Source: Bosea sp. AS-1 (GTDB lineage: Bacteria; Pseudomonadota; Alphaproteobacteria; Rhizobiales; Beijerinckiaceae). From it: a DNA stretch of 64,000 nucleotides. Below the pieces are notes generated by a model. It did not search any database. It was not told the origin of the DNA and worked only from the letters and a program-made list of their open reading frames with translations. Below are positions 1,293 to 50,325 of the stretch, piece after piece (position 1 is the stretch's first letter; each line of letters begins with the position of its first letter). A program made the position numbers and the translations under genes. Location: contig NZ_CP022372.1 of the NCBI RefSeq assembly GCF_002220095.1, positions 5,086,501-5,150,500 of the forward strand, in the 5' to 3' direction.

Positions 1293-1322
1293 GTTATAGC
1301 GATGTTTGACGTCAAAAGTCAA
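1293..1322 (-). promoter_or_regulatory. Repressor-type promoter/operator P1, drives the protease gene
   Basis: Read on the minus strand: TTGACT (-35, 1322–1317), an 18-bp spacer containing the palindrome TTTGACGTCAAA, then TATAAC (-10, 1298–1293). It matches the early promoter at 35300–35329 over almost the whole 30 bp. The predicted transcript start is about 20 nt before the protease ATG. Confidence 0.8.
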
Positions 1323-1657
1323 GTACTCGTGCGCCGTGGCGCCCGCCCCTCGATCACCCGATCCAGCCGTTCGGTCACGTGCGCGAGCGTGTCGGAAATT
1401 CCCTTGATAGCCGCCATAATCTGCTCAGTCTGCTCTCGCAGCCCAGCCTTTGACACGTAAACTTCCGCAACATGGAGTTTGTGGGCGGCCAAGGAGTCCG
1501 CAAGGACGTCAACCTTTGTCGATGCCAGTACGGCCGCCTGCATGGCGTCCTGCTTCGCGCGTTGAATTGCCCCGTCTATCTTCCACCAAACGCCCCACAA
1601 GGCGCCAAGCACTGTCAAGGCAAAGCCGACTACGGCCATAAGCTCCGGACCGCTCAT
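1319..1657 (-). CDS. Membrane-anchored coiled-coil protein of the lysis region
   Basis: 112 residues: one N-terminal transmembrane segment (about 6–25, VVGFALTVLGALWGVWW) followed by a long helical, probably coiled-coil, region and a basic tail (RAPRRTST). The ATG at 1657 overlaps the stop of the o-spanin gene (ATGA), so it belongs to the lysis operon. The stop codon lies inside promoter P1. Similar single-TM coiled-coil proteins accompany phage lysis genes, but I cannot name the family. It could be a second holin or pinholin-like protein. Confidence 0.65.
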   Translation of the reverse strand: MSGPELMAVVGFALTVLGALWGVWWKIDGAIQRAKQDAMQAAVLASTKVDVLADSLAAHKLHVAEVYVSKAGLREQTEQIMAAIKGISDTLAHVTERLDRVIEGRAPRRTST

Positions 1658-1932
1658 CGAGGCACCGGAAGGCCAATGACGCCAACAACTGCTTTATGCC
1701 GCGCCCGGCATGAGACGAGTTCGCGTCTATCCGAGCCCCAAAGGTTGACGACGTCCTTCTCTGTCAAGCGACGCTTTGGAATCGAAACTGGGCCGCTGCA
1801 CTCCTTGCGCATCTCATCCGACAACTTCGGCACGACTAATTCAGTCCTAATCACCGGCTTATCGGATCTCGTCGAGCAGCCCGCCGCGCTCAGCGCTAAC
1901 GCCGCAACCATCGCCATCAGGCAACGCTTCAT
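1654..1932 (-). CDS. Outer-membrane spanin lipoprotein (Rz1-like)
   Basis: 92 residues with a signal peptide ending in the lipobox L-S-A-A-G-C (Cys19), so it should be an outer-membrane lipoprotein. It begins inside the inner-spanin gene in another frame (overlap 1859–1932), the classic Rz/Rz1 arrangement, although here it extends well beyond the i-spanin stop. The o-spanin partners with the i-spanin to fuse inner and outer membranes in the last step of lysis. The call rests on lipobox plus overlap; sequence conservation in this family is weak. Confidence 0.75.
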   Translation of the reverse strand: MKRCLMAMVAALALSAAGCSTRSDKPVIRTELVVPKLSDEMRKECSGPVSIPKRRLTEKDVVNLWGSDRRELVSCRARHKAVVGVIGLPVPR

Positions 1933-2230
1933 TCTTGTTCCTCAGTTTTTCATATGCGTCAGCTGCGGCTGCGTCTGCGGCGCCCCGTGCCGCTTCGGCG
2001 TCAATGACTCGCTCTGCGATTGTGGCGCGCTCTTTTTCTGCAGCAGCGTTGCTTGTGGCGATTTGCTCGCGCCAATAGGAATCGCGGGTTTCGATTGCAG
2101 ATGCGACGGCGGCCTCTCGCGCATTGTCGATCGCTGCCATCCCGCGCCAGAAGCCTAGTCCTGCAAGCGCTAGGACGGCGGCGACGACTAGCGCATAGAA
2201 CGCCGGCTTGCTCAGTGTCAGTCCGAACAT
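1859..2230 (-). CDS. Inner-membrane spanin (Rz-like)
   Basis: 123 residues from the ATG at 2230, which overlaps the TGA of the endolysin gene by one base (TGATG). One N-terminal transmembrane segment (about 9–27, FYALVVAAVLALAGLGFW) is followed by an Ala/Glu/Arg-rich periplasmic coiled coil, the topology expected of a Rz-type i-spanin. The 3' end overlaps the o-spanin gene out of frame. The C-terminus is less helical and would be the part contacting the o-spanin. Confidence 0.75.
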   Translation of the reverse strand: MFGLTLSKPAFYALVVAAVLALAGLGFWRGMAAIDNAREAAVASAIETRDSYWREQIATSNAAAEKERATIAERVIDAEAARGAADAAAADAYEKLRNKNEALPDGDGCGVSAERGGLLDEIR

Positions 2231-2733
2231 CAAAGCCCAGCCTCACACAGTTCCTGCTCGCCGATACGGGTCGCGTCGCCGTTCGTGCGGCGCTTGACGA
2301 GGCCTCCGACAACCTCACCACCGGCTCGGTTAAACCGTGTCATGGCCTGGCAGCTCTCTTTGTAACGGCCCTCTCGAGCCAGGCGCGCCGCAGTGGAATT
2401 GCAAACCTCACCGACACCGACATTGTAGGACAGCGACACTGCGGCGGCCTGCCAACTTAAGGGCTTGTCTTCGAACCTAGCGATGCATCTAGTCAGCGGA
2501 ATGTAGAAATCCTGCATGACGCGCTTATCAAGCATCGCGTCACACTCCGCTTTCGTTTTGACCATGCCCGCCGTGACGCCCTTGGTCTCGCCGTAGCAAA
2601 TGTCCCAGATTTTCGCGTACCGATCCCAGTGGCTCTTTAGGACAAGCCCCTCCCATGGCTGGATCAACGCCGTCGTCGCGAGCGCGACCGCTCCGACCGC
2701 GCCAGCTAGCGCGGCCTTCGCTCTCTTACTCAT
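2230..2733 (-). CDS. SAR endolysin, GH24 lysozyme (R21-like)
   Basis: 167 residues from the ATG at 2733; a longer frame upstream only overlaps the holin gene. Residues 7–24 are a weakly hydrophobic Ala/Gly-rich signal-arrest-release segment. The lysozyme catalytic Glu28 lies in QPWEGL and Asp37 follows nine residues later, as in T4-type lysozymes. The third family position, usually Thr, appears to be Asp44 (WDICYGET). The protein should cut the glycan strands of peptidoglycan after release from the inner membrane. It overlaps the holin gene by 8 nt and is followed directly by the spanins. Confidence 0.88.
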   Translation of the reverse strand: MSKRAKAALAGAVGAVALATTALIQPWEGLVLKSHWDRYAKIWDICYGETKGVTAGMVKTKAECDAMLDKRVMQDFYIPLTRCIARFEDKPLSWQAAAVSLSYNVGVGEVCNSTAARLAREGRYKESCQAMTRFNRAGGEVVGGLVKRRTNGDATRIGEQELCEAGL

Positions 2734-2953
2734 CCAATTTTCCTGAAAGTTCGGGCTGGGCCAGCAACCTGGCGATGGTCGCACCAAGCGACACAAGGGC
2801 CGCCAGCGCAGCAAAAAGCCCGCGGTGGAATGGCGGGCTGTCGAAAAACATCGGCAATATGAATTCAATGGCGCCGAGGACTGCAGCCGCCACGTTGAGC
2901 TTTATGCTCCACGCATAGCGCAGCACCTCGCGCCAGTTATGGACGCGGGTCAT
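2726..2953 (-). CDS. Putative phage holin, 75 aa
   Basis: A small protein with two hydrophobic segments, about 17–38 (IKLNVAAAVLGAIEFILP) and 45–66 (GLFAALAALVSLGATIARLL), a Trp/Arg-rich N-terminus and an acidic C-terminus. It is the first gene of the lysis cassette and overlaps the endolysin start. Its pattern resembles the small holins of alphaproteobacterial siphophages (WxxVLRYAWSIKLN). Expected role: timed permeabilisation or depolarisation of the inner membrane. RBS AGGAAC lies just before the ATG. Confidence 0.7.
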   Translation of the reverse strand: MTRVHNWREVLRYAWSIKLNVAAAVLGAIEFILPMFFDSPPFHRGLFAALAALVSLGATIARLLAQPELSGKLDE

Positions 2954-3038
2954 GTGTTCCTAGAAAAAAGTGAGCCGTTGGTGCGCGCGGTGGCTCTGAT
3001 TTGCTGAAGGACCAGGCAAAAAAGTGGACGAATGGGCG

Positions 3039-3087
3039 TTGACTTAGCCAATTCGGGATGTAGATTTTCGCCAATCAAACTTGATTA
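3039..3087 (+). promoter_or_regulatory. Candidate promoter with adjacent inverted repeat
   Basis: TTGACT (about 3039) and TAGATT (about 3061) are 16 bp apart, followed by the inverted repeat AATCAA-ac-TTGATT just before the plus-strand gene at 3101. This lacks the GACGTC palindrome of the six repressor-type promoters, so it could stay active in the lysogen. The call is by eye only. Confidence 0.4.
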
Positions 3088-3100
3088 GACGGGGCGGCGG

Positions 3101-3406: not shown

Positions 3407-3508
3407 TATGCGCAAGGGGCGTCTCGACAGTGTAGTTAAGATTGAATAACAACGTTGCGCGCCGTTTGGTTGACCCGGCGGCGCGCCTAGGTCAGGGTGG
3501 GAAGCGAC

Positions 3509-4059: not shown

Positions 4060-4071
4060 CGTTAACCCCTC

Positions 4072-6174
4072 TCAAAGAAATTGCGACCTGCCGTTAGCGC
4101 CAAGCGCGCCGATAAACCCGCCGGACATGTTCAGGAACAGGTCGTAGAAGTCAAAAGATGTAGCGGCGACGAGGTTGACGCACTTGCCCTGGATCGTGAC
4201 ATCGACGGCATTCGTCAAATTCAGTTCATTGCCCACCGTCAGAGCCCGGATATCGAGCTGTGTCGTGTTGGTGTTAGCGGCGCCGCCGCCCCCGACATAT
4301 ACGTTGTTGCCGAGCGAGCCTGTGCCTGAATAGATGCCGAGATTGCTGATGTCGCCCTGAACAACATTGAAGAAACCGACCGCGTAACCGCCTGCCGCAC
4401 CGCACTTGAAGATCTGGATATTGCGGCCGGAAACGACGCGCAGACCCTGTGGGCTGGTGCGGGACTGCCCGTTGCAGACCAGGCCGGATCCCCAAAACCC
4501 AGAGCCGATCGCCGTGCAGTAAATGTCCTCGACCTCGAACTGATCGGGCTGCCCGGTCGCATCCCCCTGCAGGTTCATTGCGGAGACGTTTGTCGAGAAG
4601 CCGTCCTCGCGCATAAGGGTCAGATGGCGCCATGCGCCTCCGGTAAAATCCCCCGCCCCGTTGCAGTAGAGCAGATTACCGGCCGCCGACGAGATGATTT
4701 TACCCGCCTGCGAATGGATGCCCTCGATCGTCATGCCGGAGAGCTTGGCCGGATCGATGACGGTCTTGGCCAGCCACGACCCAGGCGGGATCAGTACGCG
4801 ACCGCGCCCATAGGCCGCGCGCAGCCGATCAAGGCCGATCGTCAGAGCCGGAACGATGTCTGAGCCAATATTGACCCCAGTCCGCTGCGTCCACGCTCCA
4901 GCGCCGTATTGCTCATCCATCAGGTCGCGCAGGTCGATCGTGCAGTCTTTCGGCGCAGCCCAGGCATGGATGTACGTGCTCGACGCGGCGTCCCAGAACA
5001 GCCCCTTACCATCGGCCCGTAGCGAGGTGTTGACGTCTGATGCCAAACCGACGGTTATCGCCCTCCACGAGCCACCGCCAGATAGAAACTTGGCGGCATC
5101 CCCCGCGGCCGGCGCCGGAACAAGCCCCTTCGTGCCGCCCGATCCGCTGTCGCCCACCACGGCGCTAAGGAGCGCCGTTGCCTGAGATCCAGTCAGGTCT
5201 TCAGGATCGCCCGTTCCTGCGGTCGCGCGGCCCTTGAACGTACCATCAGCCATATTGGCGAGCTTGGCATTGCTGACGGCGTCATTATCGATCGTCCACG
5301 CCGCGCCGGCCCCCGACACGACGACATCGCCCTTGTCGCCGTCGGTAACCGAACCCGAGGGGCCTTGCGGGCCTCGGATATCGACTGCGCTGGCGATGCT
5401 TGAAACAAGCCCCGTCGGCCCGACATAGTCACCCGACGCGGGCTTTGTGCCTGCTCCCCCGACCCAGTCCGAAACCTGAAGGACACGCCGAGCGCTATCC
5501 GTGACTACGGCAAGCACGGGCGACCAGCCTTTGTCGCCTTGTGCGCCAGTATTGCCGGTGTTTCCAATCGTTCCTTGCGGGCCGCGGATGTCGACGGCGT
5601 CAACGATGTTGGACACCAGTCCAGTGGCACCGACATATGCTCCGACAACCGGCTTGGTTCCCGCACCGCCGACCCAGTCTGCAACTTGCAGAACGCGACG
5701 AGCGCCGTCTGAAATCGCAGCGAAGGCTGGCGACCAACCCTTGTCGCCCTGAACGCCTTTTGGTCCGACGGGTCCGATGGCACCGGTAGCAGTGACAACG
5801 GCGGTGTTATTGCCCCACGTAACAAAAGCCTTACGGTCCTTGACGCCGCCGACCAGCCGCCCAGGCAGGTCCAGAACAAACCGCACAGCCATAATGCGAG
5901 CATGCGTGCCCCCGGTGATATCGACCACGTCCGCCGTGTACTCCCCCCGCGGCCAACCGGTCATGCCGTCCTTGGCATAGGCCACCTCGAGCACATTCGT
6001 GCCGGTGATGGTAATGCCGCTGCCGTTGGTAAGTGTGGCCCTAATGGTGCCGGAGGCCCTGTCTTTAATCAGAACCTGAAAGTTGCGACCCGATAGATCG
6101 AGGCCGGAAAATTCAAGAACGTAACTAAGGTCTTCGTCAGTCGAAATCGGAAAGAAGAAAATGTCTTTGATCAT
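4072..6174 (-). CDS. Tail fibre/spike protein with collagen-like repeats and a beta-helix-like C-terminus
   Basis: 700 residues. The first ~110 residues look like a structural attachment domain (BppU-like fold is possible). Residues ~133–275 contain Gly-X-Y collagen-like stretches (GPVGPKGVQGDKG) and a 60-residue unit present twice (142–201 and 212–271). A chaperone-like or linker region follows, then from ~440 a repetitive beta-strand region that resembles right-handed beta-helix spike domains. It probably forms the trimeric receptor-binding fibre or spike. It lies between the tail-tip genes and the lysis region, as usual for host-range genes. Confidence 0.8.
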   Translation of the reverse strand: MIKDIFFFPISTDEDLSYVLEFSGLDLSGRNFQVLIKDRASGTIRATLTNGSGITITGTNVLEVAYAKDGMTGWPRGEYTADVVDITGGTHARIMAVRFVLDLPGRLVGGVKDRKAFVTWGNNTAVVTATGAIGPVGPKGVQGDKGWSPAFAAISDGARRVLQVADWVGGAGTKPVVGAYVGATGLVSNIVDAVDIRGPQGTIGNTGNTGAQGDKGWSPVLAVVTDSARRVLQVSDWVGGAGTKPASGDYVGPTGLVSSIASAVDIRGPQGPSGSVTDGDKGDVVVSGAGAAWTIDNDAVSNAKLANMADGTFKGRATAGTGDPEDLTGSQATALLSAVVGDSGSGGTKGLVPAPAAGDAAKFLSGGGSWRAITVGLASDVNTSLRADGKGLFWDAASSTYIHAWAAPKDCTIDLRDLMDEQYGAGAWTQRTGVNIGSDIVPALTIGLDRLRAAYGRGRVLIPPGSWLAKTVIDPAKLSGMTIEGIHSQAGKIISSAAGNLLYCNGAGDFTGGAWRHLTLMREDGFSTNVSAMNLQGDATGQPDQFEVEDIYCTAIGSGFWGSGLVCNGQSRTSPQGLRVVSGRNIQIFKCGAAGGYAVGFFNVVQGDISNLGIYSGTGSLGNNVYVGGGGAANTNTTQLDIRALTVGNELNLTNAVDVTIQGKCVNLVAATSFDFYDLFLNMSGGFIGALGANGRSQFL

Positions 6175-6178
6175 TAAC

Positions 6179-27379: not shown

Positions 27380-27454
27380 TGGTGCCGGCGGAGAGGATCA
27401 AACTCCCGACCCGCGAATTACAAAAACGCCGCTCTACCACTGAGCTACGCCGGC
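27380..27454 (-). tRNA. tRNA-Thr(UGU)-like gene
   Basis: Read on the minus strand: acceptor GCCGGCG paired with CGCCGGC, an encoded ACCA end, D arm GCTC-AGTGGTA-GAGC, T arm GGGAG-TTTGATC-CTCTC and anticodon loop TTTGTAA, giving anticodon TGT. Arm lengths match bacterial tRNA-Thr(UGU). Two of the five anticodon-stem pairs are T-T mismatches (GCGTT with TTCGC), and the T loop has T where C56 is expected. It may be a working but unusual phage tRNA or a decaying one. Confidence 0.75.
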
Positions 27455-29543: not shown

Positions 29544-29574
29544 CACTATGGCTATGTTTGACGTCAAAAGTCAA
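29544..29574 (-). promoter_or_regulatory. Repressor-type promoter/operator P2
   Basis: Minus strand: TTGACT (29574–29569), 18-bp spacer containing TTTGACGTCAAA, then CATAGT (29549–29544). The -10 is weaker than in the other copies. It drives the HTH-like gene at 28543–29451 with a leader of about 85 nt. Confidence 0.75.
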
Positions 29575-29579: not shown

Positions 29580-30026
29580 CTAAACAGGACGGTTGTCATT
29601 CGCCGGCGGCTCCCAGTGCGGGATCGGCAAGCCGAGCCGGGAGGAGACGAGTGCCGTGGTTAGTTCGATAGCTTCGTCCTCGGATGATGGCGCCAGCACG
29701 ACTACGTCGTGCCCGAGATTAGTTAGCTCCAAGTGCGCCTCGTCCTGCTCGTCGCTGGTCGTGCCGTCGCTGCGCTTGAACTCGATCAGCAGCAGCTTGC
29801 CTTGTGGGAGGTAGACACGAACGTCCGGCTCGCCGGCGTTTATGCCCGTCGCCGACGCGTGCCCTTGCTCGCGGAGAGTGCGCCGGGCCGAGTTCATGTC
29901 CCCCGCCACACGAATGGGCCAGCCGACCTGCCGGTAGCGGCGCAGCCATTTCACTGCCGCAGCCTGCAGGTGCCACTCCTTGAGCGGCGCGCCGGATTTT
30001 GCTGTGGGTTTGGGTTTTCGGGCCAT
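29580..30026 (-). CDS. VRR-NUC domain nuclease
   Basis: 148 residues from the ATG at 30026 with AAGGA upstream. The PD-(D/E)XK-type core is visible: GINAGEPDVRVYLP (acidic residue) and KLLLIEFKRSDG (E-x-K), then a Gln/Glu pair in TSDEQDEAHLELTN. Stand-alone phage VRR-NUC proteins are thought to be Holliday-junction or structure-specific nucleases. It lies just downstream of the IS element and ends 6 nt before promoter P2. Confidence 0.82.
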   Translation of the reverse strand: MARKPKPTAKSGAPLKEWHLQAAAVKWLRRYRQVGWPIRVAGDMNSARRTLREQGHASATGINAGEPDVRVYLPQGKLLLIEFKRSDGTTSDEQDEAHLELTNLGHDVVVLAPSSEDEAIELTTALVSSRLGLPIPHWEPPANDNRPV

Positions 30027-30185
30027 TGTTGTCCTTGTACGTGTATAATCCAACCACTTAAAAACCATAGGGTATGAGATACTAACTACAATACGTCTTA
30101 TATATATGTGTGTTATTATATAAGAGTATTGATTTTATTGATGATTTTTAATTTATTCCCGTTGTAAATGGGGTTACAACGGTTG
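30027..30185. promoter_or_regulatory. AT-rich intergenic region with GTTGTAA/TTACAAC sites
   Basis: Much more AT-rich than the prophage average (tatatatatgtgtgtta and similar). It contains GTTGTAA-N6-TTACAAC (30161–30180) and, next to it, the left half of a GTTGTACAAC palindrome cut by the IS insertion. A TATAAT on the minus strand (near 30112–30117) could be the -10 of a promoter for the VRR-NUC gene. These look like operators of a second regulator. Confidence 0.5.
30181..30185. repeat. Left target-site duplication GGTTG of the IS element
   Basis: GGTTG immediately precedes the left end of the IS (TGTTGTAGCCCCC) and is repeated at 31514–31518. A 5-bp duplication fits IS3-family insertion. 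Confidence 0.8.
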
Positions 30186-30215: not shown

Positions 30216-31450
30216 TCACGGTGCTGCATGGGCCGCGATGAACTCGCGGGGTGAACGATATCCGAGCGACCTGTGCGGGTGAAGCTCGTTGTAGTGGTCG
30301 AACCATTCCGGCAGGGCGAGCATGACGGTTTTGGCATCGGGGATGGGATTCACCGAGACGTAGTCGCGCTTGAAGGTTCGCACGAAGGCTTCGGCCATGC
30401 CGTTGCTCTGCGGGCTCTGGACCGGAGTTGTGAGCGGCTCCAGGCCGATATCGCGGGCAAAGCGGCGGGTCGGACCTGCGATGTAGCAGGAGCCGTTATC
30501 GGTCAGCCATTCGATGGTCTGCGGCAGGCGGTTGACCTTGCCGAAGCGGTGCTCGACGGCGGTGACCATCAGGTCGCAGACATCTTCGCCCTTGATGCCC
30601 TCGGTGGTGGCGACATGGCCAATGGCTTCCCGGTCGCAGCAATCGAGCGCGAAGGCGACGCGGACCTTTTCGCCGTTGTCGCAGCCGATCTCGAAGCCGT
30701 CCGAGCACCAGCGCAGGTTGGAGCGTTCGACGGCGATGCGGCCGTCGTGACGGCGCTCGACCCCGCCAGCATGGCGTTCGAGCAGAAGGCCATGGACCTT
30801 CATCACCCGATAGACGCGCTTGCGATTGGCGGGCGCACGGCCCTCGGTCAGGGCTTTGCGGCGCAATCTGGCCCAGACGCGAGCATAGCCGTAGGTTGGC
30901 ATGTCCTCGATGACCGTCTCGATCTCGGACAGGAGCGCCTCTTCCGGCAGGGGCGGACGGCCTCTGCGCTGGGGAGAGCGCCCGGCCGTCCGCTGCGCCA
31001 GCCGGGCGGCGAGATGCGAACGGGCCACGTCCAGCGTCGCGGCGACGGTGTTCATGGCAAACCGTCCTTGGGCAGCGACAGCGACCGCAATCTCCGTTTT
31101 TTTATATCCTCCGCCAGTTCGAGGGCGTCCTTCAGGATTTCCACCTCCAGGGTCTTCTTGCCCAGGAGCCGCTGCAATTCGCGGATTTGCTCCTGCTGCG
31201 CCCGGAAGGCGGAGGCCGGGACCACTTCCTCCTCGGCCGCCGTCGCGGTCAGCGCCCCTTGCTCGGCAAGCCGCCGCCACGTGAAAAGCTGGTTCGGCGA
31301 CACGCCGCACCGGCGTGCCACAAGGCTGACCGTGACACCCGCCTCGCGCGTCTGCGCGACGATCTCCAACTTCTCCGCAACCGACCACCGGCGACGCCGC
31401 TCAGGCCCGGTCAGGACCTCAACCTTCGGATAAGAACCAGTCATAGACAC
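30216..31450 (-). CDS. IS3-family transposase OrfAB (programmed -1 frameshift)
   Basis: OrfA (31052–31450, 132 aa) has an N-terminal helix-turn-helix (VSLVARRCGVSPNQLFTWRR) and a leucine-zipper-like helix. OrfB carries the rve/DDE integrase core: SNLRWCSDGFEI, IEWLTDNGSC and QSPQSNGMAEAFVRTFKRDY. The frames meet at A7 (31097–31103), read A-AAA-AAA in the OrfA frame (codons 117–118). Slipping -1 gives a 411-residue OrfAB, the active transposase of this family. Confidence 0.92.
31097..31103 (-). promoter_or_regulatory. Transposase frameshift site A7
   Basis: Seven A residues on the minus strand in the phase A-AAA-AAA, followed in the -1 frame by ACG GAG ATT. This is the standard IS3-family -1 slippery site. 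Confidence 0.85.
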
Positions 31451-32343: not shown

Positions 32344-32387
32344 ATTCCCTCCAAACAAAAAAGCGCCGGCTGATGCCGACGCTCGTT

Positions 32388-32417
32388 AATATAGTAATGT
32401 TTGACGTCAAAAGTCAA
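32388..32417 (-). promoter_or_regulatory. Repressor-type promoter/operator P3
   Basis: Minus strand: TTGACT (32417–32412), 18-bp spacer with TTTGACGTCAAA, then TATATT (32393–32388). It lies 45 nt upstream of the ATG at 32343 and 24 nt after the stop of the sigma-like gene. Confidence 0.8.
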
Positions 32418-32440: not shown

Positions 32441-33040
32441 CTAAGCCGCCAGCGCGCGGCGTGTGTCGGCGTCCCACAGCGCATCGGCATTGCCTGCCGC
32501 CCTAGTCAAAGCCGCCCGAGCCGTCTCAACGCGCTGCCTGGCGCGCTCGACGCTTATGCCGCGCTCTGCTGCTGTCTCCCGGTAAAACGCACCCATACCG
32601 ATCGCCACGATGTCGTCGACCCTATTCCACGGCACGCGGGACAGGACGAGCGACACATCCGTTGCGTGCTCCTGATTGGGCGGCGTCCTCCTAACGGCGC
32701 GGTGCATCAGTTCGGGACGATGCTTGGCTGCAGTCTTGGCCTTGCTGATGGCGTCCTGATTGATGCCGCGCATCAGGAACTGCAGCCACGTGTAGGGGCT
32801 CTTGCCGGGGCGATATGACTGCCAGCGCTCAAGAGCGCGCAATAGCGTGGCCTGCAGTAGGTCTTCGCGTTCGTGCTGCGGCTTCGTGGGCAGGAGCTTG
32901 GCGGCGAGTTTTTTCAAGGCTGGGGTGTAGGCCAGCAACTGTGCGTCAAACTCGGCGGGGCGGTTGTCGTTGGAGCGGGCGGGGATGTAGGGCGCGTGGT
33001 TACGCTGGGCGTAACTGGGCGCCGGGAGATAGGACGTCAT
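32441..33040 (-). CDS. Phage-encoded sigma-70/ECF-like factor
   Basis: 199 residues. Residues ~30–105 match sigma region 2 (LLAYTPALKKLAAKLLP, EREDLLQATLLRALERW, YTWLQFLMRGINQDAISK). Residues ~133–185 resemble region 4 with a helix-turn-helix (FYRETAAERGISVERARQR). There is no zinc-binding anti-sigma domain. It is the last gene of the operon starting at promoter P4. A role in directing host RNA polymerase to late phage promoters is inferred from the domain pair and position. Confidence 0.75.
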   Translation of the reverse strand: MTSYLPAPSYAQRNHAPYIPARSNDNRPAEFDAQLLAYTPALKKLAAKLLPTKPQHEREDLLQATLLRALERWQSYRPGKSPYTWLQFLMRGINQDAISKAKTAAKHRPELMHRAVRRTPPNQEHATDVSLVLSRVPWNRVDDIVAIGMGAFYRETAAERGISVERARQRVETARAALTRAAGNADALWDADTRRALAA

Positions 33041-33908: not shown

Positions 33909-34132
33909 CACCGCATCTCCTCGATGGCGGCGAACGCGGCTTCCCGCAGTTCGCGGATGCGGCGAATGCCTTCTGAATGCGAAAGCGTCGGGATGCTGAT
34001 CGTGTTTCCGATGAAGCATAGGTCCCGCTCAACAAGGTCCAGTGCAGCTTTCACCAGCCGTTCGGTGGCTGTCTCCGGAACGTGGTTATGCCCAGCGTAA
34101 CAGGGTGCCGTGTGTGCTTGCGCTCCCATCAC
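33908..34132 (-). CDS. Small hypothetical protein of the P4 operon, 74 aa
   Basis: Contains HTAPCYAGHNHVPETATERL and a helical C-terminus (IRRIRELREAAFAAIEEM). Starts inside the stop of the previous gene (4-nt overlap). Function unknown. Confidence 0.5.
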   Translation of the reverse strand: MMGAQAHTAPCYAGHNHVPETATERLVKAALDLVERDLCFIGNTISIPTLSHSEGIRRIRELREAAFAAIEEMR

Positions 34133-34407
34133 ACAACCTCCCCGGTGGCGGCTGCGATGGCGGCGCGGGCAGCGAAGCAGTCGGCCAGGGTCAGGAGGCG
34201 CCTTCCACCACGTCCGGCGTAAAGCTCGATCTGGTCGGGCGGCGTCTCGTTGCGGTGTTCAAGGTGAATACCCCAGAACTTGCGCGCCTCGTCGTCAAGC
34301 TGGTTGGCGTCGTAGGCGTCAGCGATACGGGCCAGCGGGCGCAGTGCGTTTATCAGCGCCCCGTTCTGCCCCGCAGAACCCGGCGCGGTGTTGGTGGTGG
34401 CGGTCAT
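34129..34407 (-). CDS. Small hypothetical protein of the P4 operon, 92 aa
   Basis: Helical protein with LARIADAYDANQLDDEARKF, a pattern seen in Ea22/Ead-type accessory proteins, and a C-terminal helix (LADCFAARAAIAAATGE). Overlaps the first gene of the operon by 4 nt (ATGA). Confidence 0.55.
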   Translation of the reverse strand: MTATTNTAPGSAGQNGALINALRPLARIADAYDANQLDDEARKFWGIHLEHRNETPPDQIELYAGRGGRRLLTLADCFAARAAIAAATGEVV

Positions 34408-34577
34408 GAGCGCGCTCCCGCAAGGAAGCGCTCAGCAGCGGCGCGGCAGGCATCCTTGCCAGCCTTGCGGCGAATGTATGCCCCGGCCTGCGAGGGCGAG
34501 GTGAAGAGCTGCGAGTACTCGCCGGTGGCTTCGTTGACTGCGCGGAAGAAGTAGCCGTCGCGGATGATCTGGAACAT
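34404..34577 (-). CDS. First gene of the P4 operon, 57 aa
   Basis: Starts at the ATG at 34577 with GGGAGAGACGGAA upstream and reads MFQIIRDGYFFRAVNEATGE. Ends in a 4-nt overlap with the next gene. It looks like a small beta-strand/helix protein with a basic C-terminal helix (YIRRKAGKDACRAAAERF). Function unknown, but spacing to P4 and coupling make it real. Confidence 0.6.
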   Translation of the reverse strand: MFQIIRDGYFFRAVNEATGEYSQLFTSPSQAGAYIRRKAGKDACRAAAERFLAGARS

Positions 34578-34628
34578 TTCCGTCTCTCCCCTGCGGCCAT
34601 GAAAAAGGCCGCGTCGTTTCCGATGCGG

Positions 34629-34658
34629 CCTTTATGGTACTTTTGACGTCAGACGTCA
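34629..34658 (-). promoter_or_regulatory. Repressor-type promoter/operator P4
   Basis: Minus strand: TTGACG (34658–34653) followed after 17–18 bp by CATAAA/ATAAAG (34629–34635). The spacer and -35 together form a perfect interrupted palindrome TTGACGTC-A/T-GACGTCAA (34642–34658), so the operator here has a second GACGTC half-site. It drives the seven-gene operon ending in the sigma-like gene and lies just beyond the repressor stop codon. Confidence 0.75.
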
Positions 34659-34668: not shown

Positions 34669-35253
34669 TCAGACGACCCGATAAATTATCGTCGGGGTGT
34701 CGTCGTCGGGGCTGCCTAGCCCAATGCGCGTCATTGTGCGCGTCTTCAAATCCTCCACGACAGCCTCGTTGCGCGCCTCGTCAATGCGAACCAGGCGCCG
34801 AACCAAGCAATCCACCTCCGCCCCGCGAATCGCGACGATATCCCCGGCCCGTGCAGGCTCGAGCGTCTCGGCCCAAACCTCGTCGCCCTTCATATAGGCG
34901 GGCTCCATCGAATCGTCAGGCATCTTGCAGATGAGCTTGCGCTTGTTGGCGACAGCGGTTGGATCTTTCAGGAACCCCACCGGCCCGAGATCTTCGGACG
35001 GCTTGGGGTTACGCCGGCCGCGCCTTGTTTCGTTCAACGCTTTTTCCCGCTGCTCCGTCGTCATGTCGGCGAGATAGTCGTCTTCACTCAACCCCAACAC
35101 GGCCAGAACCGCGCGCCATCGGTCGGGGGTGGGAATCGCCCCGCCCTCCATGGAAACGTACTGCGTTCGGGATATCCCGGCCGCGGTAGCGACCTGTTCC
35201 TGCGTGAGGCCGAGATTGTTGCGTGCCTGCGTAAGCCTATGATGATACGTCAC
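34669..35253 (-). CDS. Prophage repressor, XRE HTH with S24 peptidase-like domain
   Basis: 194 residues from the GTG at 35253 (AGGGG about 8 nt upstream). Residues ~8–60 are an XRE helix-turn-helix (LTQEQVATAAGISRTQYVSM). Residues ~100–194 are an S24/LexA-type domain with Ser115 in MPDDSMEPAYMKGDEVWAE. The segment that normally carries the general-base Lys reads LVRRL (150–154), with Arg152 in its place, and no obvious Ala-Gly cleavage site is seen in the linker. It may therefore not self-cleave. It is divergent from the early promoter at 35300–35329 and is the likely ligand of the six shared operators. Confidence 0.88.
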   Translation of the reverse strand: MTYHHRLTQARNNLGLTQEQVATAAGISRTQYVSMEGGAIPTPDRWRAVLAVLGLSEDDYLADMTTEQREKALNETRRGRRNPKPSEDLGPVGFLKDPTAVANKRKLICKMPDDSMEPAYMKGDEVWAETLEPARAGDIVAIRGAEVDCLVRRLVRIDEARNEAVVEDLKTRTMTRIGLGSPDDDTPTIIYRVV

Positions 35254-35299: not shown

Positions 35300-35329
35300 T
35301 TGACTTTTGACGTCAAACATCGCTATAAA
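35300..35329 (+). promoter_or_regulatory. Repressor-type early promoter/operator P5 (PR-like)
   Basis: TTGACT (35300–35305), 18-bp spacer containing TTTGACGTCAAA, TATAAA (35324–35329). It lies in the 104-bp gap between the divergent repressor and the first early gene. It is the prototype of the six copies, placed like lambda PR. Confidence 0.85.
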
Positions 35330-35357: not shown

Positions 35358-35690
35358 ATGCGTGAAAAATCCTTCGGTGGTCGATATCCGCAATCGAGCC
35401 TTCCTGTTCAGACAATCGAACGTTGTGTGTCGTCGTTCCGGAACGGCGCCTCGCTGCGCGCCACCGCAGCCCTGGTCGGCTACCCGATTGACGCAACGGC
35501 ACGCGCGGTCCGGCGATATATACCAAATGCGTGGAGACGTCAAACGTCCAACGTCAGAAGTGTCGCCGCGAATGACAGCACCGTTCAGCGCGTCATGCCG
35601 CATCAAATCGGATGGAGCACAGATCCAGTAAGCCACCATGCGGTTAGCTTGCCGCGGCTTCGGTGCCTGGAGGCTACTGCCGCGCAGTGA
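35358..35690 (+). CDS. First early gene, Cro-like candidate
   Basis: 110 residues from the ATG at 35358 with GAGG upstream. The region SFRNGASLRATAALVGYPID, then ATARAVRRYIPNAW looks like a helix-turn-helix. It is the first gene after the early promoter, divergent from the repressor, so a Cro- or CII-like role is the natural guess. The C-terminal part is low in recognisable structure. Inside the gene (35535–35556) are three spaced ACGTC units. Confidence 0.55.
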   Translation: MREKSFGGRYPQSSLPVQTIERCVSSFRNGASLRATAALVGYPIDATARAVRRYIPNAWRRQTSNVRSVAANDSTVQRVMPHQIGWSTDPVSHHAVSLPRLRCLEATAAQ

Positions 35691-37743: not shown

Positions 37744-37768
37744 TGCGGCTTATTTGTGTTGCGCCGCA
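37744..37768. repeat. Intercistronic hairpin 2
   Basis: TGCGGC (37744–37749) with GCCGCA (37763–37768), 13-nt AT-rich loop. It lies in the 172-bp gap between the Sak4-like and DUF669 genes. Otherwise I see only an AT-rich stretch there that might hold a promoter. Confidence 0.45.
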
Positions 37769-37797
37769 GCATTCATCATCGAAGGAGTGAAGTTAAA

Positions 37798-38292
37798 TTG
37801 GCTAGCATTGCAGGTTCTTACGACGAGAATGCCGAACCGTCATCGGGCTATACCCCGCTTCCGGTCGGTGAATATCAGCTTGAGATTGTGGAATCCGACT
37901 ACGTTGCGACGCAGTCCGGCAATGGCATGATCCTCAAGTGCAAGGCGCAGGTTGTGGGCGGAGACTTTGACGGTCGTCCGTTCTACATCAACTACAACCT
38001 CGAAAACGCCAACGAACAGGCGCAGGAGATCGGGCAGCGTGACTTCGCTGGCTTGCGACGCGCGACCGGTGTGCTCGCTCCGCAGGACACGGAAGAACTG
38101 CACTTCAAGGCGTTCGGCGTGAAAATCGGCCAGCGGAAGCGCAAGGACACGGGCGAGCTGGAAAACAACATCGTCAAATACCTGTTTGACGGCGAGCAGA
38201 GCGCGCCGCCAGCGGCCAACAACAACCGGCCCGCTGCTCAGCAGCAGCGACCGGCGGCTGCATCAGGTGGTTCTAAGCCCTGGCGTAAATAG
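37798..38292 (+). CDS. DUF669 family ssDNA-binding-like protein
   Basis: 164 residues from a TTG at 37798, preceded by GGAGTGA; a frame reaching further upstream has no ribosome-binding site. The DUF669 pattern is clear: SIAGSYDENAEPSSGYTPLP, VGEYQLEIVESDY, DGRPFYINYNLENANEQAQE. The C-terminus is Asn/Gln/Pro-rich and ends SGGSKPWRK. Members are coded next to Sak4-type ATPases and are thought to bind single-stranded DNA. Confidence 0.82.
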   Translation: MASIAGSYDENAEPSSGYTPLPVGEYQLEIVESDYVATQSGNGMILKCKAQVVGGDFDGRPFYINYNLENANEQAQEIGQRDFAGLRRATGVLAPQDTEELHFKAFGVKIGQRKRKDTGELENNIVKYLFDGEQSAPPAANNNRPAAQQQRPAAASGGSKPWRK

Positions 38293-40886: not shown

Positions 40887-40888
40887 CC

Positions 40889-41497: not shown

Positions 41498-41506
41498 GTA
41501 TCTGCC

Positions 41507-42439
41507 TTGGCACCCCTCCCCCAAACCACCACCATCAGCCCGACCGTCCTGGCGATCTATGCCGCCTACGAAGCCGCCGCGACGGACTGGGATTCGTGGG
41601 GCATCTCGGTCGGTGACATCGGCCTTGAGTGCGACCGAGCACTCTGGCTGGCCATGCGGTGGGTCAGTGAGCGCGAATTCATCGACGGCCGTAAGCGGTC
41701 GATCTTTGAAACCGGCAACATCTGGGAGGAGCGGCTCGTCGCGAACCTTGAAGCGGCGGGCTGCGAGGTCACCGGCACGCAGGACAAGATGCGGTTTGCC
41801 CACGGTCATTTGCGCGGAAAGCGCGACGGCGCGGTGTCTGGGCTGGCGGAAGCGCCAGTCACTGAACATCTGCTCGAGGTGAAGTCGCACAAGGACGACA
41901 AATTCAGGGAAGTCGTCAAAAAAGGCGTCAAGGTCGCGCAGCCAACCCACTATGGGCAGCTTCAGCTGGGATGCCACGCGTTCGGGCACAGCCGCTGGTG
42001 CTATGCGATCGTCAACAAGAACACGGACGAGCGGCACATTGAACGCGGCGAGTACGATCACGACTATTGCATCCGTCAGATCGCCCGGGCCGAGCGTATC
42101 GCGCTGAGTCCGGAGCCGCCCGGCCGTGTGTGCAAGGATCAAACCGACTTCCGCGGGATGTTCTGCCGGCAGAAAGACGTTTGCTGGGGCGAGGCGATGC
42201 CACGGGTGCATTGCCGGTCGTGTTTGCACAGCTCCGCCGAGCCGCATGGTGACGCCGCCTGGTCGTGCGGGCGCTGGATGAAGCCGCTCAGCATCGACGA
42301 GCAGCGCGAAGGATGCCCGAACCATTTGCATATTCCGGCGCTCGTGCCGGCTGAACAGATCGACGTGGACGAAGAAAACGAGACGATTTCGTACCGCCTA
42401 GCAGACGGCAGCATTTGGATTGATGGGGCGAGCGCGTGA
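41507..42439 (+). CDS. Cas4/RecB-like PD-(D/E)XK nuclease with Cys cluster
   Basis: 310 residues, TTG start. The nuclease core is visible: GKRDGAV with Asp107, LLEVKSH with Glu124/Lys126, and HYGQLQLG with Gln151. Cysteines at 42 (ECDRALWL), 209, 220, 226, 236, 239, 254 and 270 may hold an iron-sulphur cluster or zinc, as in Cas4-like phage exonucleases. It should process DNA ends for the Sak4/DUF669 recombination system. It overlaps the cytosine methyltransferase gene by 4 nt. Confidence 0.75.
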   Translation: MAPLPQTTTISPTVLAIYAAYEAAATDWDSWGISVGDIGLECDRALWLAMRWVSEREFIDGRKRSIFETGNIWEERLVANLEAAGCEVTGTQDKMRFAHGHLRGKRDGAVSGLAEAPVTEHLLEVKSHKDDKFREVVKKGVKVAQPTHYGQLQLGCHAFGHSRWCYAIVNKNTDERHIERGEYDHDYCIRQIARAERIALSPEPPGRVCKDQTDFRGMFCRQKDVCWGEAMPRVHCRSCLHSSAEPHGDAAWSCGRWMKPLSIDEQREGCPNHLHIPALVPAEQIDVDEENETISYRLADGSIWIDGASA

Positions 42440-43611
42440 AAGTTCTGGATCTCTTCAGCGCTGCCGCCGGCGGCTGGTCGCTCGGAATGCACCGCGCCGG
42501 ATACCGCACCGTTGCCGCATGCGAAGTCATTGACTGGCGCCGCGCCCTCTATTTGCAGAACAACCCCGGAGTTCCGGTTTATGACGACGTCACAACCCTT
42601 ACAGCAGACCGACTTGTTCGGGACGGTATTGGGCTTCCCGACATCATCGTCGGCTCGCCGCCCTGCCAGGACATCAGCAGCGCAAACACCAAGGGCAAAG
42701 GCGTCGACGGAGAGCGCAGCGGACTTTACTTCGAGGCCATCCGGCTCATTGGCGAATGCCGACCTCGTTGGTTCGCTCTTGAGAATAGCGCTAATCTCCG
42801 AACTCGAGGCGCAGACCGGGTCATCGATGCGCTGGCGGCAATCGGCTACACCTGCTGGCCATTCGTGGTCAGTGCTGGAGACATCGGCGCCAATCACGAG
42901 CGCAAGCGAAGCTGGCTTGTCGGGTTCTGTATTGCCGACGCCGATGGCCTCGGACGGGATGGCGGGCGGCAAGGGTGGTGGAGCGGGCTCGACATTCCCC
43001 TTTCGATCGATCCTAGGCACGCCAACGAAGTCGTCCAAGGTCCGGTCAGAGTCCTTCATGGAAGGTCGTGCGCCATCGATCAAGGAGGCGTTGTTCCATA
43101 CACCGACGACGAAAGCGAACTTCGCGGCGCCGAGCATGCAGAAATGGGAAAGCTGCAAGCCGTGGCAGGAGATGTTGGAAACACTGCCAACGCCGACGAA
43201 GCGGGACAAAAGGCTGGACTCCTGGAGTCCAGCCTACGATCGACGCAAGAGCCCGACGATGGATGCTGTGATGGACGGCGCCATGACGGGTCGGGCGTCG
43301 GACAAATGGGCGGGTGCGAGGGCGCTGGCCGCGCTCCTGCAGAGCCATGGGCTGAGTGGAACGGCGGCCTTGCCCATCACCTACGGGTGGATGATGGGCT
43401 ATCCAGCTGGGTGGCTCAGTCGCGCATTGCAGTCGGCGGTCCACGCGGGACAGTTGCAGCTAGCCTCATCGTCGAAGCGTTCGGCGACGCAGTCCTACCG
43501 CAAATCCCAGAGGCCATCGGCCGCGCCATCTGGCGCGTAGAGGCTGCGCTGGCTGCCCTCCACATGCCCGCCGCCAACGATAACGACAAGACTAAGGAGA
43601 CTGCTGCGTGA
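42436..43611 (+). CDS. C5 cytosine DNA methyltransferase (Dcm-like), with a second coding-like frame
   Basis: 391 residues. Family motifs: VLDLFSAAAGGWSLG (motif I), GSPPCQDIS with catalytic Cys77 (IV), FALENSAN (VI), ANHERKRSW (VIII-like) and EAFGDAVLPQIPEAIG (X). Methylation of phage DNA to escape host restriction is the likely purpose. Oddity: the +1 frame, open from 42512 to 43540, carries pieces typical of the variable region of other phage Dcm proteins (SVLPTPMASDGMAGG, ETLPTPTKRDKRLDSW, GWMMGYPAGW) with high GC at third positions. Compensating frameshifts or overprinting are possible, so the middle ~160 residues are uncertain. Confidence 0.82.
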   Translation: MKVLDLFSAAAGGWSLGMHRAGYRTVAACEVIDWRRALYLQNNPGVPVYDDVTTLTADRLVRDGIGLPDIIVGSPPCQDISSANTKGKGVDGERSGLYFEAIRLIGECRPRWFALENSANLRTRGADRVIDALAAIGYTCWPFVVSAGDIGANHERKRSWLVGFCIADADGLGRDGGRQGWWSGLDIPLSIDPRHANEVVQGPVRVLHGRSCAIDQGGVVPYTDDESELRGAEHAEMGKLQAVAGDVGNTANADEAGQKAGLLESSLRSTQEPDDGCCDGRRHDGSGVGQMGGCEGAGRAPAEPWAEWNGGLAHHLRVDDGLSSWVAQSRIAVGGPRGTVAASLIVEAFGDAVLPQIPEAIGRAIWRVEAALAALHMPAANDNDKTKETAA

Positions 43612-45279: not shown

Positions 45280-45297
45280 GTGAACAAGGGGAACTCT

Positions 45298-47658: not shown

Positions 47659-48014
47659 TGCGGCTGCTGGTTACGGGTGGTCGCGATTTTACCAACCGAG
47701 AGTTGGCGTTCTCAGCCTTGAACAAACTCGATGCCGAGAACTGCATAGACGTCGTGATACACGGCGCGGCCAAGGGTGCGGACACGCTTGCTGCGCGGTG
47801 GTGCGCAGCAATGAATGTCCCGGTGTGGCCATTCCCCGCCGAATGGAGACGCCACCAAAACGCGGCTGGGCCAATCCGCAATCAGCGAATGATCGACGAG
47901 GCCGCCCCCAGCCACGTCCTAGCCTTTTCCGGCGGCAACGGCACCGCCGACATGGTGCGCCGTGCGCGCGCCGCAAATATCCCCGTTATCGAGGTTCCTG
48001 CGCATGTTCACTAA
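47658..48014 (+). CDS. DUF2493/YspA-like SLOG-family protein
   Basis: 118 residues from the ATG at 47658 (TGATG). The Rossmann-like SLOG pattern is clear: MRLLVTGGRDFTNRE, IHGAAKGADTLAARW, and LAFSGGNGTADMVRRA. This family is thought to bind nucleotides or nucleotide-derived ligands and is often found in phage and defence contexts. Its specific role here is not known. Confidence 0.78.
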   Translation: MRLLVTGGRDFTNRELAFSALNKLDAENCIDVVIHGAAKGADTLAARWCAAMNVPVWPFPAEWRRHQNAAGPIRNQRMIDEAAPSHVLAFSGGNGTADMVRRARAANIPVIEVPAHVH

Positions 48015-50292
48015 GCCCGCCGCCGAAGCACCCTACGCCCTTCATGGCGAGCGCATTGCAGACCTCGGCTATAGCGTGATTCCGTGCCGCCCGGGATCCA
48101 AGCGGCCCGGCGACTATAAGGCCGGGTCTTGGTATGGTCGCTTTGACTGGGGCCAGTACTGCGACCGCGCGCCGACGGAGTACGAACTGCGGACGTGGAC
48201 CCGCTGGCCAGATGCCGGCCTGTGTGTCGCGCTAGGCTTCAACGACGTCATCGCGGTCGACGTGGATACCGACGACGACGCCATGCGTGCCGCGCTGTCT
48301 GCCGTCCTGCCGCACTCCACGGTGACCAAGCGCGGTGAGAAGGGCTTTACGGCGTTCTATCGCGGCAGCCGGAAGATCGAGCCGCGTCACTTTGACATCA
48401 ATAAGAGCCGGGTGGTCGACCTGCTGGCGTACGGCACACAGACCGTTATTCCGCCGACCGTTCACCCCGACACGCAGCGCCCCTATGTCTGGCTGACGGA
48501 CGACACGCTTGAGAACACCCATCCGCACGACCTGCCAGAACTACCGGACGACATCGCCGACCAGATTGCGGACGCGCTAGAGCCGTTCGGGTACTTCGCG
48601 CCGGCGCACGTCACCCGTGTCTCAGACGGCCTTGGTGGCGGCATCTGGCGCGACCTGAACACACAGGCGCTCGGCAAGCTAGACCTGTGGGTTCCTGAAT
48701 TGGACCTGCCAAAGCTCAGCCGCAACCGGCGCGGCGGCTACGTGGCCGTGCCGCACTGGCGCCCGTCTCACCGCGGCAGGCCGCTTCATGATCGCAATCC
48801 GAACCTCAAGATTTCGGAACAGGGCATCCGCGACTTCCACGACGGAGAGAAGGGCTACACGCCCGTTGATCTCGTAATGTGCGCCATGGGCTGCACGTTC
48901 GATTTTGCGGCGGACTGGCTGAAGGCCAAGATTGGGTTTGAGGAGCCCGGTTTGCTGGGGCTCGAGCCGTGGTTTCCCAAGCGGCCCGAGCCCGTAGCGG
49001 AAAACGATAACGTGCCCGCGGCACCCGCCCAGCCGACTGAAGTTGCCGCGCCGCGAAGCAAGGTGAACCCATTCCCCCCGAAGTCAGCCGGTGGGCTGAT
49101 CGAGGCCATTGCGCGCTGGACGCTTGAGACGGGACGCCGTCCCGTGCCGGAGTTCGCCATGATGACGGCAATTGCGTTCGCGGCTGGCCTGTACGGGCGG
49201 CGCTTCGTCGGTCCGACGGGCGTTGGGTTGAACGTGTATTTGGTCGGGCTCGGCGCGTCGGCTCTAGGCAAGGGCCATCCGTTGAAGGCGCTGCGCACGA
49301 TCGCGAACGACTGCAACATGCTGCATATGGTGGCGGCGGGCGTGCCGACGTCTGACTCCGCGATTGAGCGCATCCTACGCAAGCTGCCTAGCCAGGTTTT
49401 GCCGCTGGATGAGTTCGGCCTGCTTATGCAGTCGGTCAACGGGCGCAATAGCTCGTCGTGGTCACAGACGGTGCGGCGTGCGTTGCTCGAGATCTATTCT
49501 CTCAGCACTGACATGTGGATGGGCAAGCAGTTCTCCGACCCGAAGCGGCCGGATCCAGAGCCGCTGCACTGCCCTACCCTGACTTTGATGTCCGTGACGA
49601 CGCCGACGACGTTCTATGACGGGCTTTCGGAAGCGAACCTGTCCGACGGCTTCCTGAACCGTATGACGGTCATTCACGCGACAGAGATGCCGGACAGGCA
49701 GGAGGCGGAACCGATCATGACGGCGCCGCCGTCTTTGGTTGCGGCGGTGAAACGCGCAGAGGAAGACGCCAGGCCAACTGGCTTTGGCGGCGCGGCGTAC
49801 CGCGACCCCAACCAGCGCCCGAAGATGGCAGCTGTTGGGTGGGCCACTGACGAAGCCAAGCGCCGGTGGCTGGAAATCGAAGATTGGCAGATTGGCCAGA
49901 TTGAGGAGCGCAACGGGCACGAAGGCATTGTCGGACGCGCCGCGGAGCAGACGCAGAAGTTTGCGACGCTGCGGGCGCTTTCACGGGATGGCAAGGCGGC
50001 CCGCGTGACACTGGACGACGTCGAATGGGGCTATGCCATCGTTCAACGCTCAATCGACTGCCTGGACAAGGGCATTGCCGAGAACATGTCCGGCTCGGAG
50101 TTCGAGGCCGTCATGAAATCGATCTTGGCCGCACTGCGTAAGGCCAAGGGCGGAAACCTGCCGCGTTCGGTCTTGCTTCGGCAGCGCGGAGTGTCCAAGG
50201 CCGACACGCGCATGGTCAACGGCGCTTTGGACCGGCTGGTGGAAACTGGCGAGGTGGTTAGGTCCGGTGGGGCGGTGAAACTTGCCGCATAG
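48004..50292 (+). CDS. Bifunctional primase-polymerase with DUF3987 helicase-like domain
   Basis: 762 residues from the ATG at 48004. The N-terminal Prim-Pol domain shows VIPCRPGSKRPG, AVDVDTDDDA (metal-binding acidic pair), STVTKRGEKGFTAFY and AYGTQTVIPPTVHP. After a linker at ~340–370 comes a DUF3987-like domain with a degenerate P-loop (GLGASALGKGHPLKAL) and VLPLDEFGLLMQ. The C-terminal ~60 residues resemble a winged helix (RQRGVSKADTRMVNGALDRL). It is the probable replication initiator and primase of the phage. Confidence 0.88.
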   Translation: MFTKPAAEAPYALHGERIADLGYSVIPCRPGSKRPGDYKAGSWYGRFDWGQYCDRAPTEYELRTWTRWPDAGLCVALGFNDVIAVDVDTDDDAMRAALSAVLPHSTVTKRGEKGFTAFYRGSRKIEPRHFDINKSRVVDLLAYGTQTVIPPTVHPDTQRPYVWLTDDTLENTHPHDLPELPDDIADQIADALEPFGYFAPAHVTRVSDGLGGGIWRDLNTQALGKLDLWVPELDLPKLSRNRRGGYVAVPHWRPSHRGRPLHDRNPNLKISEQGIRDFHDGEKGYTPVDLVMCAMGCTFDFAADWLKAKIGFEEPGLLGLEPWFPKRPEPVAENDNVPAAPAQPTEVAAPRSKVNPFPPKSAGGLIEAIARWTLETGRRPVPEFAMMTAIAFAAGLYGRRFVGPTGVGLNVYLVGLGASALGKGHPLKALRTIANDCNMLHMVAAGVPTSDSAIERILRKLPSQVLPLDEFGLLMQSVNGRNSSSWSQTVRRALLEIYSLSTDMWMGKQFSDPKRPDPEPLHCPTLTLMSVTTPTTFYDGLSEANLSDGFLNRMTVIHATEMPDRQEAEPIMTAPPSLVAAVKRAEEDARPTGFGGAAYRDPNQRPKMAAVGWATDEAKRRWLEIEDWQIGQIEERNGHEGIVGRAAEQTQKFATLRALSRDGKAARVTLDDVEWGYAIVQRSIDCLDKGIAENMSGSEFEAVMKSILAALRKAKGGNLPRSVLLRQRGVSKADTRMVNGALDRLVETGEVVRSGGAVKLAA

Positions 50293-50295
50293 TAC

Positions 50296-50325
50296 TTGAC
50301 TTTTGACGTCAGACATCACTATAAC
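50296..50325 (+). promoter_or_regulatory. Repressor-type promoter/operator P6
   Basis: TTGACT (50296–50301), 18-bp spacer with TTTGACGTCAGA, TATAAC (50320–50325). It starts a few bases after the stop of the primase gene and drives the accessory cassette ending in the Xis-like and integrase genes. Confidence 0.8.

Follow-up and report, generated by a model that had tools for sequence, protein, structure and literature searches.

Probable operator-promoter sites of the Bosea prophage

A stretch of 64,000 nucleotides from Bosea sp. AS-1 (contig NZ_CP022372.1, positions 5,086,501 to 5,150,500; the whole stretch is called the window, and positions are counted from its first base) contains prophage DNA with a promoter-operator module at six places, P1 to P6. 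These six sites are quite probably the operator-promoters of one prophage regulon under the repressor encoded at 34669-35253. The reading is based on the confinement of the sites to the prophage, on the site at each side of the repressor gene, and on the different palindrome found beside a different S24-like repressor at orthologous places of related phages.

All six sites combine a TTTGACGTCAAA-type palindrome with a TTGACT or TTGACG -35 box and a -10 box. On the minus strand are P1 (1293-1322; TTGACT-N18-TATAAC; palindrome 1305-1316), P2 (29545-29574; TTGACT-N18-CATAGT; palindrome 29557-29568), P3 (32388-32417; TTGACT-N18-TATATT; palindrome 32400-32411), and P4 (34631-34659; TTGACG-N17-CATAAA; palindrome 34642-34653, one mismatch). 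On the plus strand are P5 (35300-35329; TTGACT-N18-TATAAA; palindrome 35306-35317), which is divergent from the repressor gene and stands before the early operon, and P6 (50296-50325; TTGACT-N18-TATAAC; palindrome 50302-50313, one mismatch). P4 and P5 flank the repressor gene, one on each side. The initial annotation had proposed six sites with these -35 boxes and a palindrome, and all of them are present in the sequence. Its spacer of about 18 bp is right for five sites, and P4 has 17 bp. The P4 site is real, and its placement at 34629-34658 was off by two and one bases. The TATAAC-like -10 box is good in four of the six sites and weaker at P2 and P4. Every site was also said to precede a gene or operon. 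All six palindromes are intergenic in our own gene list (non-coding fraction ~0.17; chance of six out of six ~2e-5) and oriented with the next gene.

The likeness extends beyond the boxes. The 18-bp spacer of P1, P2, P3, P5, and P6 opens with TTTGACGTCA(A/G)A. With up to three mismatches allowed, the 21-mer TTGACTTTTGACGTCAAACAT matched the window at five places (four exactly, one with one mismatch; P4 not among them), compared with 0.00 in dinucleotide shuffles of the window (n = 100). The top repeated 10-bp palindrome of the window was TTGACGTCAA.

Each site would be a promoter of the sigma-70 type, with the palindromic operator lying between its -35 and -10 boxes. The 194-residue protein, which is helix-turn-helix (HTH)/S24-like, is predicted to bind P1 to P6. 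The bound repressor would block the start of RNA polymerase at the early operon behind P5 and at the trypsin-like moron behind P1, as well as at P2, whose gene lies before the late region, and at the P3, P4, and P6 operons. It may also limit its own transcription through the flanking P5 and P4. Upon loss of the repressor, all six sites would open together.

Distribution of the sites

A motif search of the prophage and the host genome had been proposed beforehand. In the 5,838,389-base host genome, exact TTTGACGTCARA was found at P1 to P6 alone; the reversed control pattern gave two matches. TTGACNNNNGACGTCAAAC at up to two mismatches returned 14 rows in the same genome, and the reversed control two. 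The six sites account for seven of these rows (P4 appears on both strands), one row is a host place with one mismatch, and the remaining six have two mismatches each, including one inside the prophage at window position 5030. A more stringent pattern, which recovers four of the six sites, was tried on a draw of 397 genomes from the order, and the 396 besides the own genome were free of matches; this draw did not include G016 and G054, two genomes which have variants. TTGACNTTTGACGTCARA had one further copy among 66 other genomes of the genus.

The prophage borders were taken from a 77-bp direct repeat. The right copy, taken as attR, is at 56006-56082 (plus strand), and the left copy begins about 8.3 kb before the window, at G000:C3:5078167. 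The repeats bound a prophage of ~64 kb, and all six sites are inside. The motif recurs in many intergenic spaces of the phage and is absent from the host, as in a dispersed-operator regulon of the P1, L5, or SPbeta kind. Binding of the sites by a host regulator is very improbable: the TTGAC/GTCAA half-sites are short enough to invite the idea, but no other TTTGACGTCARA exists in the 5.84-Mb host, and the 66 genus genomes hold just the one further TTGACNTTTGACGTCARA.

Window-type sites were also found elsewhere. Among viral contigs, an 18-base pattern identified IMGVR_UViG_2758568013_000002, which is identical to the window over the compared stretches, and three contigs with one site each. Five more viral contigs with isolated sites, obtained with a looser pattern, were judged to be chance matches. 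In two of the three single-site contigs, the metavirome contigs L010 (1060-1077) and L012 (6217-6234), the exact window 21-mer stands before a homolog of the gene at 37756-38292, with no clear -10 box; the two contigs look like one phage, other than the window prophage. Genome G016 contains a small degenerate prophage (G016:C1:5259674-5274500; L107, L108), which by reading lies between selD-like and selB/selA-like genes. Three window-type sites are found there (5260888, plus; 5260999, minus; 5273738, plus), the first with 28 of 30 bases identical to P5. These could be orphan operators, or the element could answer to the repressor of another phage. A fourth window-type site of G016 is elsewhere, at 481867.

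Relationship to phage 16-3 and its scattered palindromes

The primase-like protein at 47962-50292 pointed to the Rhizobium and Sinorhizobium phages of the 16-3 group. By tblastn, 20 of 43 window proteins compared match RHph_TM3_3_14B (TM3_3_14B), 16-3, or RHph_X2_25 (X2_25). The portal protein shares 71% identity with 16-3, 67% with TM3_3_14B, and 26% with X2_25; the beta clamp shares 46-47% and the helicase 37-44%. The core of the 16-3 lineage is held in common, namely portal, capsid, AAA ATPase, beta clamp, helicase, primase, and the protease moron. Gene order was compared by eye only. Judged from its proteins, the prophage is a relative of Rhizobium phage 16-3.

The 16-3-like phages have scattered palindromes of another type. 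The 13-mer TTGACAAATTTGT occurs eight times in AP-16-3, seven times each in NV1.1.1 and 16-3, and six times each in TM3_3_14B and X2_25 (34 in total). These palindromes are promoter-embedded, and one copy always adjoins the S24-like repressor gene, which is p070 in 16-3. The window does not share the lineage trait of scattered TTGACAAATTTGT operators. ACAAATTTGT also tops the counts of perfect 10-bp palindromes (NV1.1.1 7, TM3_3_14B 6, AP-16-3 8, 16-3 7, and X2_25 8). Over the first 50 kb of 16-3, this palindrome was counted five times, versus 0.03 in shuffles (n = 30). A motif-free repeat search of six sequences recovered the window module in the window and a TTGACAAATTTGT-based module in NV1.1.1 and AP-16-3; it returned no operator-type repeats in TM3_3_14B, G054:C44, and G030:C25. 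Both groups of sites have a TTGAC -35 box, and the palindrome overlaps or follows it, ahead of the -10 box. Five of the seven copies in 16-3 are outside every annotated coding sequence; one is in p062 and one in p102, which are opposite-strand open reading frames (ORFs). In TM3_3_14B, four of the six copies are wholly intergenic, and the remaining two show a 4-base overlap with the stop codon upstream.

Linkage of this palindrome to p070 was followed in 14 p070-type genes, from five viral loci (L054, L055, L057, L061, and L062) and nine bacterial-genome loci. Twelve have ACAAATTTGT within ~200 bp upstream, and two have the variant TTGACAATTTTGTCAA. The candidate loci L014 (the prophage itself), L060, and L059 were left out, as were L056, L058, and L063-L066 (no p070 match). 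In the nine bacterial genomes, where the p070 neighbourhoods are putative prophages, the 13-mer had 43 matches, versus one for the reversed control. The p070 contig carries 31 of these, at most 60 kb away, and nine form a 35-kb cluster on another contig of G725. The remaining three rows comprise a single palindromic site on a different G728 contig, which accounts for two of them, and a match elsewhere in G729.

Phage 16-3 has long been studied as a model of rhizobial lysogeny, and avirT is among its immunity elements. The available part of PMC10460002 ascribes its immunity to the C repressor and immX, and that of PMC12429752 names only the operators oL1, oL2, oR1, and oR2. The scattered operators of 16-3 are not mentioned in the available parts of these two papers, PMC3694467, PMC6550527, PMC9283540, PMC10516654, and PMC8546580; the original operator papers are outside this set, and an earlier description is possible. 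The p070 protein is labelled merely p070 or helix-turn-helix protein in two 16-3 records. The scattered ACAAATTTGT sites of 16-3 might be extra C operators, so that the window repressor replaces C and not p070. The C operators in DQ500118 (ACAA-N4-TTGT and ACAA-N6-TTGT/TTGA) do have ACAA and TTGT half-sites like those of the scattered sites, and a C homolog is present at all five viral p070 loci tested, so linkage cannot separate p070 from C. However, the four C operators annotated in the 16-3 record are confined to gene c, and the scattered sites are unannotated there. The spacer of the scattered sites is 2 bp, and p070 always has one of these sites directly upstream. This reassignment to C is rather unlikely.

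The putative repressor

The predicted regulator of P1 to P6 (34669-35253, minus strand; 194 residues) is an S24-like repressor with an HTH of the XRE type. A library of 5.8 billion proteins contained seven relatives with 58-75% identity, known as proteins only. Apart from the prophage itself, no relative with DNA context was found in 298 genomes of the family and 397 of the order (both counts including the own genome), nor in viral contigs, genome contigs, or phage records (both contig collections searched by short peptide patterns). Against the PDB by sequence, the profile gave three weak matches, the two listed being to the HTH part, and the single sequence gave none.

The S24 Ser is conserved in all eight proteins, the window repressor and its seven relatives (PDDSM or PDGSM). 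At what we take to be the LexA-type Lys position, seven of the eight have Arg, and the eighth does not align there. The p070 relatives have Val and Gly in six of six at the two places that are presumably catalytic in S24 proteins. The catalytic Ser and Lys of a self-cleaving LexA/CI-type S24 repressor are therefore not found together in the window repressor. Self-cleavage is doubtful for both types, given the Arg in place of Lys in the window type and the Val and Gly in the p070 type.

The window repressor shares 19-26% identity with the p070 proteins and occupies the same genomic place. A homolog of the C repressor was not found in the window at E 1e-4, and 8.3 kb of the prophage left of the window was not part of this search. 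The alignment, the shared place, and the lack of a C homolog in the window indicate that the repressor corresponds to p070 in its position and probably also in its role.

Conserved positions with different operators

An operator was assigned to an ortholog if it was at most 450 bp upstream or 120 bp downstream. The gene behind P1 encodes a trypsin-like serine protease (584-1264, minus strand; Pfam PF13365, E 7.3e-29) with an N-terminus that reads as lipoprotein-like. It is the ortholog of 16-3 p036 and has 36-41% identity to genes of the five 16-3-like phages. Four of these five (TM3_3_14B, AP-16-3, 16-3, and NV1.1.1) have an operator upstream of the gene; the X2_25 site is two genes upstream. 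The gene behind P2 (28543-29451, minus strand; PHROG 36072, function unknown) has orthologs in two of 50,697 phage records, RHph_TM3_3_14B and NV1.1.1, both with the operator upstream. Its ortholog in the same-genus prophage G054:C44 has an upstream operator of window type, TTGACAAACGACGTCAAACA, at 52753-52771. The gene before P2 is endonuclease-like (29580-30068, minus strand; VRR-NUC from the annotation of orthologs). X2_25, 16-3, and AP-16-3 have an operator after the ortholog of this gene, and in TM3_3_14B a small gene is between the two. All five 16-3-like phages have an operator between the divergent repressor and early genes. A P4-like site is found ~20 bp behind the S24 repressor gene in TM3_3_14B, and directly behind p070 in G726, G727, and G729.

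Since each phage has its own operator type in front of the orthologs of the trypsin-like protease and the P2 gene, the operator set appears to have been exchanged together with the repressor, with several positions kept. The copies might also be recent duplications of a mobile or recombination element with no regulatory meaning, as they are near-identical for about 30 bp. However, the identity stops near the promoter borders and the leaders differ, all six copies are intergenic and oriented with the next gene, and the relatives have another palindrome at several orthologous places. Such duplication is hardly credible.

Another explanation is that a phage activator or sigma factor switches the sites on jointly. 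The candidate would be the sigma-70-like factor at 32441-33040 (minus strand; Pfam PF04542, E 2.6e-11; PHROG 1740), which ends 23 bp before P3, or a MerR-like binder between the boxes. Several copies are alike beyond the palindrome (ACAT..CTATA), the palindrome is placed between the -35 and -10 boxes, and a sigma-70-like homolog is encoded by the prophage and two of three compared relatives. However, spacers of 17-18 bp and near-consensus -35 boxes make an activator unneeded. The repeats are palindromes with linkage to the gene of an HTH repressor, and all five 16-3-like phages have a site at the divergent repressor/early promoter. Joint activation is improbable.

Several observations weigh against the repressor regulon. 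In G030, neither type of site is found upstream of the partial P2-gene ortholog, and the site behind the helicase gene, present in all five 16-3-like phages, is absent from the window. Counterparts of P3 and P6 were not found in the relatives. The comparison of operator with repressor type covers only two types. The degenerate G016 prophage has no window-type repressor despite its three sites, G054:C44 has one window-type site and no window-type repressor on that contig, and the P2 -10 box is weak. The prophage-wide regulon suggested by the initial annotation is kept for the restriction of the sites to the prophage, their position on both sides of the repressor gene, and the parallel in the 16-3-like phages. 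Its extension to the integrase is less well founded, and an S24 catalytic residue seems to be missing from the repressor. The integrase (54631-55644, plus strand; PHROG 1, E 6.7e-28) starts 4.3 kb behind P6.

Hairpins and transcriptional read-through

A GGCCGC..GCGGCC hairpin with a T-run (34607-34630, minus strand) starts at the first base after the P4 -10 box. In RNA reading through from the repressor gene, the hairpin is predicted to be intact, with a folding energy of -20.5 kcal/mol. In RNA starting 6-9 nt behind the -10 box, the left arm is lost, and the values are -7.3 to -8.7. The hairpin being intact in the one RNA and cut in the other, the terminator of the repressor gene seems, in these folding predictions, to form part of the beginning of the next operon. 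A second terminator-like hairpin with a T-run (32361-32384, minus strand) is directly behind the P3 -10 box. In the predictions for the shortened RNAs it is weakened and not lost (-18.3 versus -6.5 to -16.0). Leader hairpins were rejected as a general part of the module: the mean folding energy of the six window sites was only marginally low (P ~0.05 at 45 nt; 0.10 at 40 nt with another offset), and the leaders of the five 16-3-like phages were no more folded than random windows.

The sites might mainly be stoperator-like roadblocks against read-through from upstream, with a secondary promoter role. Five of the six come right after a co-oriented gene: P1 overlaps that gene's stop codon, and the gaps from the stop codon are 5 bp at P2, 23 bp at P3, 9 bp at P4, and 3 bp at P6. 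P3 and P4 also stand just before the terminator-like hairpins. The L5-type stoperators likewise occupy short intergenic spaces and are oriented with transcription, according to the available parts of PMC9283540 and PMC6550527. However, every site here is promoter-like and most stoperators are not, and the core is palindromic here and asymmetric in stoperators. A role mainly as roadblocks is quite unlikely; in their placement alone, the sites are compatible with an L5-like block of elongation.

Comparison with known systems

The lambda CI repressor has an HTH and an S24-type domain, and its operator is in the divergent early promoter; the window repressor and P5 are similar in these respects. 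However, lambda has two control regions, OL and OR, whereas the window has single operators beyond two regions and Arg at the presumed catalytic Lys position. The initial annotation contrasted the scattered sites with the two sites usual in lambda-like phages and so overstated their rarity, because dispersed phage operators are already known as a kind from P1, the L5-type phages, and SPbeta. The inverted repeats of phiC31 are a further analogue. Phage P1 has 22 dispersed C1 operators (PMC8546580, as far as available); these are asymmetric, 17 bp long, and from an unrelated phage. The L5-type phages have 20-30 sites, whose consensus varies together with the repressor between phages (available parts of PMC6550527 and PMC9283540). 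Many repressor sites across the genome, in short intergenic spaces and oriented with transcription, resemble the window; the L5-type sites are asymmetric, 13-14 bp long, mostly promoterless, and bound by monomers, whereas the window has six palindromes in promoter-like sequence. TTTGACGTCAAA is palindromic, unlike stoperators, which have no dyad symmetry. In SPbeta, the master repressor MrpR binds the repeated element SPBRE in several phage promoters (available part of PMC10516654). MrpR is related to tyrosine recombinases, and its element is a different 15-bp motif. A parallel with related genes is found in 16-3 and its kin (AP-16-3, NV1.1.1, RHph_TM3_3_14B, and RHph_X2_25). They share with the window many genes, scattered promoter-embedded palindromes, and an S24-like HTH repressor divergent from the early operon, but they have the ACAAATTTGT palindrome and the C repressor. 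The present system extends the known kind by its promoter-embedded palindromes, its S24-like repressor, a second regulon that is likely in the 16-3 family, and the occurrence of two codes at the same positions.

A wider proposal, for and against which we see about equal weight, is that the 16-3 family has a second genome-wide regulon beside or instead of the lambda-like C switch. This regulon would be ruled by p070-type repressors that keep the S24 fold without self-cleavage, hence without the usual RecA induction. Its set of six to eight operators would have swapped its code together with the repressor at least once, with several positions before orthologous genes kept. The P4 terminator, overlapping the start of the next promoter's transcript, would stop read-through from the repressor gene and be cut off in P4-started RNA. 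If so, an HTH gene without a named function (p070) and seven scattered operators would be a further immunity layer of 16-3. The window prophage and its relatives would be a natural case of a regulon that changed its DNA code and kept several gene targets, which is the step needed for a new immunity type.

Other genes of the window

The small gene behind P3 (32020-32343, minus strand) has no match in PHROG or Pfam. Behind P4 is a 57-residue ORF (34404-34577, minus strand), which overlaps the next ORF (34129-34407) by four bases. By position, the first early gene behind P5 is at 35358-35690 (plus strand). The gene behind P6 (50351-50485, plus strand) reads as a small membrane-protein-like gene and opens the run towards the integrase. 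A transposase-like protein with an integrase core, recognized from its translation, is encoded at 30216-31388, between the P2 and P3 operons. A tRNA-Thr(TGT) is at 27380-27454, between the P2 gene and the terminase genes; in NV1.1.1, a tRNA-Met is directly behind the ortholog of the P2 gene. The DNA cytosine methyltransferase-like protein at 42436-43611 has 93% identity over 166 residues to a protein of phage X2_25, whereas the next two window genes have 37% and 48% there, which suggests a recent exchange.

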